Origin: Halosimplex salinum | Lineage (GTDB): Archaea; Halobacteriota; Halobacteria; Halobacteriales; Haloarculaceae | Assembly (NCBI RefSeq): GCF_003730195.1 | Contig: NZ_QWGG01000002.1 | Location: forward strand, 186,001-250,000 | Direction of reading: 5' to 3' | DNA: 64,000 nt | Part shown: in pieces, positions 18,183-23,600 of the stretch | Layout: every line of letters begins with the position of its first letter | Numbering within the stretch: the first letter of the stretch is position 1 | The notes under the pieces: generated by a model | Told to the model about the DNA's origin: nothing | The model's database searches: none | Seen by the model: the letters and a program-made list of their open reading frames with translations, nothing else | Program-made: the position numbers and the translations under genes

Positions 18183-18295
18183 CTGGACGAACGACAACCT
18201 TATATCGATAATATTCTGCGATAGTTCTGACGCACGTCTCGTTATCCGCCCAGAAATTACGTTTTTATCAAGCATAGCCTTATGAGGCAGGATTC
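18183..18295 (+). promoter_or_regulatory. Conserved upstream region of amt copy 1
   Basis: This ~113-bp A+T-rich stretch aligns with 21025-21137 in front of the second amt gene. Shared blocks include ctggacga, acaacctta, taatattct, a tgacg..cgtct segment, gaaatt and a ccttat box. The spacing is conserved to within one base. The rest of 18061-18404 holds no gene. Conservation outside coding sequence points to an operator for nitrogen control. Confidence 0.6.
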
Positions 18296-18404
18296 CAGGA
18301 GCCCTAACCGAAATGTACACCACGAACGTGGTCCGAACGAGTGGAAAGGTAGACGATCATCAAATCCTCTCGGAGAGTCGCGCTCTCTCGGAGGTGACGC
18401 GCTG

Positions 18405-19862
18405 ATGGCGGGCGCGCTGCTGGCGCCGGCAGCCGACGCGGCCCTGCAGCTGGGGCCCGGACCGGTCTCGAACAGCGTGAACTACGTCTGGGTTCTGGTC
18501 GTCTGTTTCCTGATCTTCTTCATGCAGCCGGGGTTCGCCCTGCTCGAGAGCGGGCAGGTCCGGGCGAAGAACGTCGGAAACGTCCTGATGAAGAATATGA
18601 CCGACTGGACGCTGGGGGTCCTGGTCTTCTTCCTCGTCGGGGCAGGCGTCAGTGCGCTCGTCGCACAGCTGACCTCCGGCGCCGCGTTCGACCTCGCGGG
18701 AGCGTTCTCGTACATGTCCGCGCCCGGGGAGAGCGGCACCGGCTGGATCGACTGGTTCTTCGGCGCCGTCTTCGCGATGACGGCCGCGACCATCGTCTCG
18801 GGCGCGGTCGCCGAACGGATGGACTACAAGGCGTACGTGTTCGTCGCCGCGGCGATGACCGCAGTCATCTACCCGGTCGTCACGGGGCTGACGTGGGGCG
18901 GCGGCCTGCTCTCGGCGAGCGGATTCCTCGGCGACGCGATCGGCGTCGGCTACCTCGACTTCGCCGGCGCGACCGTCGTCCACATGGTCGGCGGCATCGC
19001 CGGCCTCGTCGGCGCGAAGATGGTCGGCGCCCGCGCCGGCCGCTTCGACGCGAACGGCGACAGCCAGCCCATCCCGGGCCACTCGATGCTGCTCGCCGTC
19101 CTCGGCACGCTGTTCCTCGCGTTCGGCTGGTACGGCTTCAACGTCGGCACGCAGGCGACGGTGCTCACCTCCGAAGGCGTCTTCATGGGCGGCGCGCTCG
19201 GCCGCGTCGTCCTCAACACGACGCTCGGGATGGGCGCCGGCGGCGTCGCGGCCATGCTCGTCTCCTCGGTCTGGCAGGGCAAGCCCGACCCGCTCTGGGC
19301 GGCCAACGGCCTGCTCGCCGGCCTCGTCGCAGTCACCGGCGCCGTTCCACACGTCACCTGGTGGGGCGGTCTCCTGCTCGGCGGCCTCGCCGGCGCACTG
19401 GTCCTGCCGACCTACCGCTGGGTCGTCGACTCGCTGAAGATCGACGACGTCTGCGGTGTCTTCGCCGTCCACGGCAGTGCCGGCGCCATCGGGACGATCC
19501 TGATCCCCGTGCTCGCGGCCGACAGCGGCGGGGTCGCCATCCTCGGTGACCCCTGGACGTTCCTCGGCGTCGACCAGCTGGTCATGCAGGTCGCGGGCGT
19601 CGCCGTCATCGGGATCTGGACCGTCCTCGCGACGGTCGTCGCGTTCACGGTCGCCGACGTGCTCTTCGGCCTCCGCGTCAGCGAGGAAGAGGAGGAGGTC
19701 GGCCTCGACGAGAGCGAACACGGCGTCTCGACCTACCCCGAGTTCGTCGCCGGCGGCAGCTGGGAGGGGCCGACCGTTAGTACCGACGGCGGTGTCGTGA
19801 ACGACACCTCGTCAGAGCTTCGCTCTGACGGCGGCGTCTCCGGAGGTGTCGACGATGACTGA
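18405..19862 (+). CDS. amt: Ammonium transporter, copy 1
   Basis: A 485-residue Amt/MEP/Rh channel in the cytoplasmic membrane with 11-12 helices. Family signatures include [37 protein letters not shown] and [11 protein letters not shown]; the pore twin histidines are expected at VVHMVGG and in the [14 protein letters not shown] region. The start is set by a strong ribosome-binding site, ggaggtga (18390-18397), just before ATG 18405; upstream codons are unconserved. The C-terminal tail ([10 protein letters not shown]) is the GlnK-contact region. It overlaps glnK by 8 bp. A 28-nt palindromic block near the end of the gene is identical to one in amt copy 2. Confidence 0.95.
19807..19834. repeat. 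Embedded palindrome in the amt copy 1 C-terminal coding region
   Basis: GTCAGAG-CTTCG-CTCTGAC (19811-19829) forms a perfect 7-bp stem with a 5-nt loop and encodes part of SSELRSDGG. The same 28 nt occur at 22565-22592 in the second amt gene. Confidence 0.7.
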
Positions 19863-20220
19863 CGGGGCCGACGACGGCGAGATCGAGATGGTCGTCGCGG
19901 TGATCCGTCCCGACAAACTCGGCGACGTGAAGCAGGCGCTGGCCGAGGCGGGCGCGCCGTCGCTGACGGTGACGAACGTCTCCGGCCGCGGCTCACAGCC
20001 CGCGAAGAAAGGCCAGTGGCGCGGCGAGGAGTACGTCGTCGACCTCCATCAGAAGGTCAAAATCGAGTGCGTCGTCGCCGATATCCCCGCACAGGACGTC
20101 GTCGACGCGATCGCCGACGCCGCCCAGACGGGCGAGCCCGGCGACGGCAAGATATTCGTCCTCCCCGTCGAGGACGCGGTACAGGTTCGGACCGGCGACT
20201 CGGGCCCCGGAGCCGTCTGA
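19855..20220 (+). CDS. glnK: Nitrogen regulatory protein P-II (GlnK), copy 1
   Basis: A 121-residue PII signalling protein that binds ATP/ADP and 2-oxoglutarate and blocks the partner Amt channel when nitrogen is plentiful. Seen: [18 protein letters not shown] at the start of the fold, a T-loop with [21 protein letters not shown] that keeps the conserved RGxEY tyrosine, and the [10 protein letters not shown] strand. The same ggaggtg that ends amt is its ribosome-binding site, placed 6 nt before ATG 19855, so I prefer this over the in-frame GTG 19846. Operon: amt-glnK-lrp. Confidence 0.95.
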
Positions 20221-20226
20221 CTGCCG

Positions 20227-20691
20227 ATGTCGGCAGACATGGACGACACGGACCGGCGGATCATCGGCGCCCTGCTGCAGAACGGCCGGGCGAGCGCGAG
20301 CGAACTCGCGGAACACGCCGAGATCGCGACAGCGACCGCGGCCAAACGGCTCCAGCGCCTGGAGGAAGAGGGCGTCATCGGCGGCTACCAGCCCGAAGTC
20401 GACTACGAGTCGTTCGGCTACGAGGTGACGGCGGTGTTCCGCCTCGACGTCGACGGCACGGGGCTCGCGACCGTCGTGGACGACCTGCGCGACACCGGTC
20501 ACATGGTCGGCGTCTACGAGGTCACCGGCGAGGACGACGTGGTCGCCGTCGGCAAGTTCGAGGATACCCAGACGCTGAACGCCCAGATCAAGTCGCTGCT
20601 CACCCATCCCGAGGTCCGCTCGGCCCGGACGAGCATCGTCCTCGACACCGTCTGCGAGTACGATCCGCTCCCCGTCGACGTCGAGGAGTAA
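20227..20691 (+). CDS. Lrp/AsnC family transcriptional regulator, copy 1
   Basis: A 154-residue regulator with an N-terminal helix-turn-helix (about 5-55; ASASELAEHAEIATATAAKRLQRLEEEGVI) and a C-terminal RAM/AsnC effector domain (DVDGTGLATVVDDL...VTGEDDVVAVGKFEDTQTLNAQI). It starts 7 nt after glnK and so is part of the ammonium operon; it probably regulates nitrogen genes in response to an amino acid. A close paralogue follows the second amt at 23139. Confidence 0.92.
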   Translation: MSADMDDTDRRIIGALLQNGRASASELAEHAEIATATAAKRLQRLEEEGVIGGYQPEVDYESFGYEVTAVFRLDVDGTGLATVVDDLRDTGHMVGVYEVTGEDDVVAVGKFEDTQTLNAQIKSLLTHPEVRSARTSIVLDTVCEYDPLPVDVEE

Positions 20692-21237: not shown

Positions 21238-23103
21238 ATGCTGGAACTCACCGCGCTGCAAACTGACACGCAAACGTTGATCGACGCGATAAACACCACC
21301 TGGGTACTGGTGGTCACGTTCCTGATCTTCTTCATGCACGCCGGCTTCGCCATGCTGGAGGCGGGGCAGGTACGCTCGAAGAACGTCTCGAACCAGCTGA
21401 CGAAGAACCTCCTCACCTGGAGCATCGGGGTGACGGTGTTCTTCCTCGTCGGCGCCGGCGTCGACAGCCTCGTCGGCGGCGGCGGCTTCTCGCCGGCCTT
21501 CCAGGCCGAGAGCGCCGCCGACTGGACCGGCTGGCTGTACGGCGCCGTCTTCGCGATGACCGCGGCGACCATCGTCTCCGGGGCCGTCGCCGGTCGCGCG
21601 AAGCTCCGCGCGTACGTCGGCTACACGTTCCTGCTGGCGGCGGTCATCTACCCCGTCGTCTCCGGCATCGCGTGGTACGACGCCGGCCTGCTCGGCATCG
21701 ACGGCGCGGTCGGCTCCGCCGTCGGCGCGGCGTTCGACGACTTCGCGGGCGGGACGGTCGTCCACGCGATGGGCGGCATCGCCGGTCTGACGGCGGCGTG
21801 GGTGCTCGGGCCCCGCATCGGTCGCTTCAACGACGACGGCTCGGCGAACGTCATCCCCGGTCACTCGATGACCTTCGCCGTGCTCGGCACGCTCATGCTC
21901 GCCTTCGGCTGGTACGGTTTCAACGTCGGCACCTCGGCGATCTTCAGTTCCGAGGGCGCCTTCCTGAGCGAGCAACTCGGCCGCGTCGCGATGAACACGA
22001 CCATCGCGATGGCCTGCGGCGCGATGGGTGCCGGGCTCGTCGCCTGGCTCAAGACCGGCAAGGTCGACACGCTGTACGTCGCAAACGGGCTGCTTGCCGG
22101 TCTCGTCGGCATCACCGCGATCCCCCACGCGTCGGCGTGGTGGGGCGCGTTCGTCGTCGGCGGCCTCTCCGGCGCACAGCTCCCGGTCGTCTTCTCCTTC
22201 GTCGAGAAGCGCCTGAACATCGACGACGTCTGCGCGGTCTTCCCCGTCCACGGCAGCGCCGGCGTGCTCGGCACGCTCATGCTGCCGGTCGTCGTCGCGC
22301 CGAGCTACCTCGCCGACGCGGGCGTGACCCGCGTCGAGATGTTCCTCGCCCAGTTCGCCGGCGTCGCCATCATCGCGGCGTGGACCGTCCTCACGACCGG
22401 CCTCATCTGGGGCGCGTTCAAGGCGCTCGGGCAGGCCCGCGTCAGCCGCGAGCACGAACAGGACGGCCTCGACGTCAGCGAACACGGCGTCGAGACCTAC
22501 CCCGAGTTCGGCGACGAGGGCGCTGCCGTTGCGGACGGCGGTTTCGTGAGCGAGGCGAACGAGGCCTCGTCAGAGCTTCGCTCTGACGGCGGAACGATTC
22601 GCACGGACGGTGGCATCGACACTGACGAGCCCGAAATTCGCACGGACGGCGGTATCAACATGGACGAGACCGACAACGAGATTCGCACGGACGGTGGCAT
22701 CGACACGGAGACCGAACGCGAGATCCGAACGGATGGCGGAGAAGACGCGCCGAACGACGGCGACATCAAGATGGTCGTCGCGATGGTGCGCCCGGACAAG
22801 CTGGGCGACGTGAAACAGGCGCTCGCGGAGATCGGCGCGCCGTCGCTGACGGTGACGAACGTCTCCGGTCGGGGCTCACAGCCCGCGAAGAAAGGGCAGT
22901 GGCGCGGCGAGGAGTACGTCGTCGACCTCCACCAGAAGGTCAAGATCGAGTGCGTCGTCGCCGATATCCCAGCACAGGACGTCGTCGACGCCATCGCGGA
23001 GGGTGCCCAGACCGGCGAGAAGGGCGACGGCAAGGTGTTCGTCCTGCCGGTCGAGAGCGCGACGCAGATCCGGACGGGCAAGACCGGACCGGACGCTGTC
23101 TGA
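21238..23103 (+). CDS. Ammonium transporter fused to P-II domain (copy 2)
   Basis: A 621-residue single frame. Residues 1 to ~430 are a full Amt channel ([20 protein letters not shown] start; [52 protein letters not shown] tail). Residues ~431-508 are an acidic linker with four EIRTDGG-type repeats. Residues ~509-621 are a complete PII domain ([20 protein letters not shown]-loop [27 protein letters not shown]). No stop separates them. The PII part is nearly identical at DNA level to glnK copy 1. Tethering would give each Amt subunit its own regulator. ATG 21238 is chosen because the upstream codons are not Amt-like. Confidence 0.93.
22565..22592. repeat. Embedded palindrome in the amt-PII linker
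   Basis: GTCAGAG-CTTCG-CTCTGAC at 22569-22587, identical over 28 nt to 19807-19834. It encodes SSELRSDGG immediately before the linker repeats. Confidence 0.7.
22597..22740 (+). repeat. Four imperfect repeats encoding the Amt-PII linker
   Basis: Units beginning attcgcacggacgg (the last one atccgaacggatgg) start at 22597, 22636, 22681 and 22723, with spacings of 39, 45 and 42 bp, all multiples of three. They encode (E)IRTDGGI-type motifs joined by acidic spacers. In-frame expansion of a short motif seems to have lengthened the tether. Confidence 0.75.
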
Positions 23104-23138: not shown

Positions 23139-23600
23139 ATGGTAGACATCGACGACACCGATAGACAACTGATCGACGCGCTCCTGGCCGACGGGCGCGC
23201 GAGCTCGAACGAACTCGCGGCGGAGGCCGGCATCGCGACCGCGACCGCGACCAAGCGCGTCCAGGCGCTCGAAGCGGACGGCGTCGTCGACGGGTACCGA
23301 CCCGACGTCGACTACGACGCCTTCGGCTACGACGTGACCGCGGTGTTCCACCTCGACGTCGTGGGCGACGGCCTCGACACCGTCGTCGCGGACCTGCGCG
23401 ACACCGGCCACATGGTCGCGGTCTACGAGGTCACGGGCGGCGACGACGTGGTCGCCGTCGGCAAGTTCACCGACACCGAGTCGCTGAACGCCGAGATCAA
23501 GACGCTGCTCGTGCACGACGACGTCGAGTCGGTCTCGACGAGTATCGTCCTCGAGACCGTCTGCGAGGACGACCCGCTGCCCGTCTCCGGGGCCGACTAG
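23139..23600 (+). CDS. Lrp/AsnC family transcriptional regulator, copy 2
   Basis: A 153-residue paralogue of the regulator at 20227, with matching helix-turn-helix (ASSNELAAEAGIATATATKRVQALEADGVVDGY) and RAM domain (VTGGDDVVAVGKFTDTESLNAEIKTLL). It lies 35 bp after the Amt-PII fusion, completing the duplicated module. ATG 23139 is chosen; in-frame sequence upstream is antisense-like and unconserved. Confidence 0.92.
   Translation: MVDIDDTDRQLIDALLADGRASSNELAAEAGIATATATKRVQALEADGVVDGYRPDVDYDAFGYDVTAVFHLDVVGDGLDTVVADLRDTGHMVAVYEVTGGDDVVAVGKFTDTESLNAEIKTLLVHDDVESVSTSIVLETVCEDDPLPVSGAD

Follow-up and report, generated by a model that had tools for sequence, protein, structure and literature searches.

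The closest described counterpart of the locus reported here is the complex between the ammonium channel AmtB and the PII protein GlnK (Escherichia coli and Archaeoglobus; PDB 2ns1 and 2nuu), a 3:3 assembly in which the T-loop of GlnK lies inside the pore; the plugged state is favoured by ADP and opposed by ATP, Mg and 2-oxoglutarate (PMC10433425; PMC8395244). GlnK is a separate, diffusible protein in this system and comes and goes. In the haloarchaeon Haloferax mediterranei, amtB and glnK are likewise separate genes, and GlnK both binds AmtB and activates glutamine synthetase (PMC3831643; GlnK2, PDB 4ozj). Sensor Amts (6eu6; Sd-Amt1, 8qj3 and 8qj4; Amt–histidine kinase proteins) form a third group, in which an Amt and an extra signalling domain share one chain.

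Here we describe an amt2–glnK2 gene, located in a 64,000-nucleotide stretch of Halosimplex salinum DNA (hereafter the window), in which a PII domain is carried on the Amt chain itself. The protein families, the plug arginine of the T-loop and the Amt C-terminal region are those of the AmtB–GlnK pair, and a 3:3 stoichiometry would be expected, but the PII is no longer a separate protein. From H. mediterranei it shares the haloarchaeal setting, a strongly similar PII and long Amt tails, but a tethered PII may not reach glutamine synthetase. Compared with sensor Amts, the attached domain is a PII, that is, a channel plug. We consider it probable, mainly from sequence comparison, that the fusion is a self-regulated ammonium channel whose architecture derives from an old fusion with later fissions, and that the two parts were re-fused in this species. 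The Amt–PII architecture is probably listed in domain databases. Searches of an open-access library brought up no paper on natural Amt–PII fusions, and they are not mentioned in the Amt reviews PMC10433425 and PMC10794816. The features of the locus are as follows.

18282–19862, + strand: amt1, paralogous Amt gene; PF00909, 334 bits, with the Pfam domain beginning at residue 69 and the true start uncertain
19855–20220, + strand: glnK1, free PII; PF00543, 100.7 bits; GGAGGTG upstream of the ATG
20227–20691, + strand: Lrp/AsnC-type regulator following operon 1
21238–23103, + strand: amt2–glnK2 fusion gene, 621 amino acids plus stop; stop-free frame with Pfam Amt and P-II domains
21301–22500, + strand: ammonium transporter domain, residues 22–421; PF00909; AlphaFold model mostly confident and matching Amt structures
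22438–22509, + strand: Amt cytosolic C-terminal region, 24 amino acids, aligned with E. coli AmtB RVPEEQEREGLDVNSHGENAY; its counterpart touches GlnK in E. coli
22510–22761, + strand: linker, 84 amino acids, Asp/Gly-rich with RTDGG repeats, predicted to be disordered; longest among 87 fusions
22768–23082, + strand: PII domain, residues 511–615; PF00543; close to H. mediterranei GlnK2 (PDB 4ozj)
22867–22917, + strand: T-loop, 17 amino acids, residues 544–560; equivalents of GlnK Arg47 and Tyr51 at residues 556 and 560
23139–23600, + strand: Lrp/AsnC-type regulator following the fusion

The fusion gene runs from an ATG at 21238 to a TGA at 23103 with zero internal stops. Its Amt part scores 315 bits against PF00909 (cut-off 23.2; profile positions 2–399 of 399) and its PII part 91.6 bits against PF00543 (cut-off 25; positions 2–102 of 102). 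A sequence-only reading of the DNA had described a complete Amt, a linker and a complete PII with an intact T-loop in one frame, and this description holds in each of its parts. In an AlphaFold single-chain model, the channel and the PII are ordered, pLDDT falls below 50 at residues 411–501 (the linker stretch), confidence is low at the T-loop (residues 541–565), and the structural matches are Amt structures and H. mediterranei GlnK2. The C-terminal end of the chain, at residue 621, is free.

The same reading had pointed to an adjacent operon with amt and glnK as separate genes overlapping by 8 bp, which is indeed what is found: the end of amt1 (19862) and the start of glnK1 (19855) share ATGACTGA. 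A similar Lrp/AsnC-type gene lies 3′ of each amt–glnK unit, which suggests that the whole three-gene unit was duplicated. Beyond these two Amt and two PII genes, no further Amt or PII gene was found in the genome.

The residues that the AmtB–GlnK plug depends on can be compared between 87 fused and 74 separate haloarchaeal PII sequences, with E. coli GlnK (checked against PDB 1gnk) as the yardstick for ligand positions. The Arg47 position is an arginine in all 87 fused and all 74 separate sequences, and the Tyr51 position is a tyrosine in 85 of 87 and 74 of 74, respectively. Gln39, Lys58 and Lys90 are kept in 87 of 87 fused PII domains and Arg103 in 86. The window's fusion keeps Gln39, Lys58, Gly87, Lys90 and Arg103, but not Arg101, the equivalent of which is a glutamine in 86 of 87 fused and 72 of 74 separate haloarchaeal proteins. 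The T-loop and most ligand-binding positions are thus conserved equally in fused and separate proteins. On the channel side, D168, H176 and H338, which align with the pore aspartate and twin histidines of E. coli AmtB, are invariant in 56 fusions, as are R401, V402, H406, E407, G410–D412, E415–G417 and T420–E423 of the Amt C-terminal region. The free C terminus of PII aids 2-oxoglutarate binding (PMC8395244); in all fusions seen, PII is attached via its N terminus, leaving the C terminus free, which fits this role.

A tethered PII trimer gating its own channel is likely to be the best functional reading of these features. Three chains would form the Amt trimer, and the three PII domains, hanging on flexible acidic linkers, would assemble into one PII trimer beneath it, an arrangement modelled on the known 3:3 AmtB–GlnK complex. 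With ADP bound, the T-loops would plug the three pores; with ATP, Mg and 2-oxoglutarate bound, they would shift and the channel would open, while PII would stay tethered.

The tether may, however, be cut in cells, as a C-terminal fragment of 20 kDa was the main form in which tagged AmtB1 of H. mediterranei was seen (PMC3831643). The fusion could be a delivery form only: proteolysis of the exposed linker would free PII, and the outcome would equal that of separate Amt and PII proteins produced at a 1:1 ratio. The linker is both long and exposed and is predicted to be disordered, and the separate Haloferax GlnK acts on glutamine synthetase as well as on AmtB (PMC3831643). But no motif for cleavage was noticed on inspection, linker length is variable (19 to 84 residues; median 30 in the 87 fusions), and the 20-kDa fragment is thought to begin before the last membrane helix, so that it would remain membrane-bound. 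We regard cleavage as the working of the fusion as unlikely. We think it distinctly improbable that the fused Amt is mainly an ammonium sensor, its attached PII signalling to other membrane or cytosolic partners in the manner of sensor Amts. Chains that combine an Amt with a signalling domain are a known design, and sensor Amts (6eu6, 8qj3 and 8qj4) rank among the solved Amt structures closest in sequence and fold; against this, the Amt and PII parts retain the positions that form pore and plug in a transporter–regulator pair, and no partner gene was identified.

The sequence-only reading had proposed a survey of haloarchaeal amt–glnK loci, and this revealed the fusion to be common. PII was searched for in 391 genomes of the class Halobacteria, with three families covered more fully; open-frame length was used to flag fusions and the loci were then read. 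Among 161 Amt–PII pairs read, 87 are in-frame fusions and 74 are separate, and the fusions come from seven haloarchaeal families and have linkers of one kind. This census rules out a fusion that is unique or due to chance, because the same in-frame fusion was read at 87 loci. In a second collection, of named haloarchaea, the fusion is found alone at 68 of 80 loci and beside a separate PII at two more. For counts per family, a PII was scored as fused when its frame had at least 540 amino acids, to which one gene cut off at a contig end was added after reading. In family f3, which includes Haloterrigena salina, PII is fused in 107 of the 113 genomes with PII and is only fused in 99 of them; in the window's own family (f1), the corresponding numbers among the matches listed are 45 and 31 of 102. 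The suggestion that the free GlnK1 covers the other tasks of PII therefore fits this genome, which has a separate glnK1, but does not extend to fusions generally, as the f3 genomes with only fused PII attest. Outside Halobacteria, none of the PII matches listed in a phylum sample lies in a frame of more than 243 amino acids.

Fusions in Natrinema, Halorubrum, Natronomonas and Haloterrigena have the same domain order and the same TDGG/RTDGG/PNDG linker as the window's gene. Their linkers, however, are usually of about 30 residues and they often provide the sole PII, whereas the window's copy sits within a group of separate genes and appears to have been re-fused. An extra separate PII gene follows the fusion gene at L155, L112/L156, L020, L028 and L076 (genomes G068, G284, G116, G181 and G441); the same PNDG head recurs in some of these extra genes, which look like renewed copies of the PII domain taken from the fusion. 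Several near-complete haloarchaeal genomes have no PII among the matches listed (G032, G043, G047, G101, G208, G362 and others).

An Amt tree of 157 rows divides into clade A, with amt1 (39 rows, all separate), and clade B, with the fusion (87 fused and 31 separate). The window's gene has the features that define the fusion class, namely an Amt of clade B, Amt followed by PII in one frame, and a DGG-repeat linker. When the tree is rooted between the two clades, the fused or separate label needs ten changes. Under equal costs, and also when a gain costs up to three times as much as a loss, parsimony yields a single gain, which is the window's fusion, and many losses; if the cost of fission (loss) is doubled, the preferred solution becomes 13 fusions and 2 fissions. 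The Amt2 clade was probably ancestrally fused, with several later fissions, and the separate-gene lineage of Halosimplex probably descended from the older fusion.

Within Halosimplex, the window's genome is the only one of eight listed in which the amt2 locus is fused. The seven others have an amt2 tail followed by a stop, and then the start of a separate glnK2 with a head containing RTDGG repeats; on alignment, the stop, the start and the GGAG site are absent from the window's junction. In amt2 DNA trees, the window's gene is sister to that of G408 within the separate congeners (support 98/97). AU tests reject its placement outside the separate congeners, with p = 3e-14 against all seven and p = 3.7e-5 against five, two gene-exchange rows being left out. 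Trees of amt1 and of glycyl-tRNA synthetase place the window near G418 inside Halosimplex, and PII genes are too short to resolve the genus. In two Halosimplex genomes (G275 and G414; loci L057 and L060), amt2 groups with genus g87 and amt1 groups within Halosimplex, which suggests exchange of the operon between genera and is a reservation on the amt2 tree.

Given that the congeners have separate genes and that the window's gene is nested among them, the latter is most likely a secondary re-fusion. Retention of the ancestral fusion in this species is disfavoured by the AU tests and by the stop–start junction common to the seven congeners. The simplest reading of the alignments is a deletion between repeats: an in-frame deletion between RTDGG-coding repeats would have removed the amt2 stop together with the glnK2 start and ribosome-binding site. 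The 84-residue linker, longest of the 87, is what would be expected if both tails had been joined. The origin first proposed for the fusion, by loss of the stop and expansion of the linker, was close in that the amt2 stop has been lost, but incomplete, as the deletion would also have taken the glnK2 start and ribosome-binding site and the lineage probably had separate genes before. Sequence elements of the linker are as follows.

22597–22610, 22636–22649 and 22681–22694, + strand: direct repeat ATTCGCACGGACGG, three exact copies
22568–22588, + strand: perfect palindrome CGTCAGAGC-TTC-GCTCTGACG, coding SSELRSD, in the amt tail of the fusion

The linker contains a tandem array with a period of 39 and three copies, and comparison with relatives makes the ATTCGCACGGACGG repeats likely points of deletion and expansion. 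The palindrome, in the form CGTCAGAGC-N3-GCTCTGACG, is present in both amt tails of the window (19810–19830 and 22568–22588), each time coding SSELRSD. A shorter form has 8 genomic sites, some of them outside long convincing ORFs, compared with 0 in a reversed control. Of 59 haloarchaeal genomes sampled, 13 contain the palindrome, and in the linkers of other families it is preserved via paired synonymous changes. It looks like a dispersed repeat.

The fusion in this species is known from one genome assembly, and the join could be an artefact of assembly or an accident of this strain, with genes that are in truth separate as in the congeners; the fused copy is single among the eight Halosimplex genomes listed and its junction lies within repeats. 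We nevertheless hold this to be very unlikely, because the fusion lies on a 644 kb contig, the frame is open throughout, and the linker has diverged repeats of its own, in greater number than most relatives have, which is unlike a simple collapse.

Translation signals bear on whether the fusions give one protein or two. A Shine–Dalgarno match of at least 5 bases precedes the start codon in 61 of 74 separate PII genes, compared with 1 of 87 fused ones, and the window's fusion has no such match before its PII domain; in 57 of the 87 fusions, the stretch between the domains offers no start codon in frame. The scarcity of ribosome-binding sites and the missing start codons argue against separate translation of PII and are compatible with cleavage. 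Translation starting also inside the linker, so that one gene would yield tethered and free PII, is highly improbable and not supported by this survey of 87 fusions, even though the linker of the window's fusion contains two start codons in frame, one of them the ATG in INMDETDN.

Few signal proteins are as widespread as PII, which as a rule shuttles among many targets. We put at about even the chance that two things hold together: that PII no longer occurs as a diffusible protein in a large group of haloarchaea and exists there only as a built-in channel gate, and that Halosimplex has passed through fusion, fission and re-fusion via DGG-coding repeats. A sole PII fixed to the channel throughout a large group would test which role of PII is indispensable, the gating of Amt or the control of enzymes and genes. 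Halosimplex offers a paired comparison of nearly the same proteins, joined in one species and separate in others, and the locus would clearly illustrate how genes fuse and split via repeats in disordered tails.
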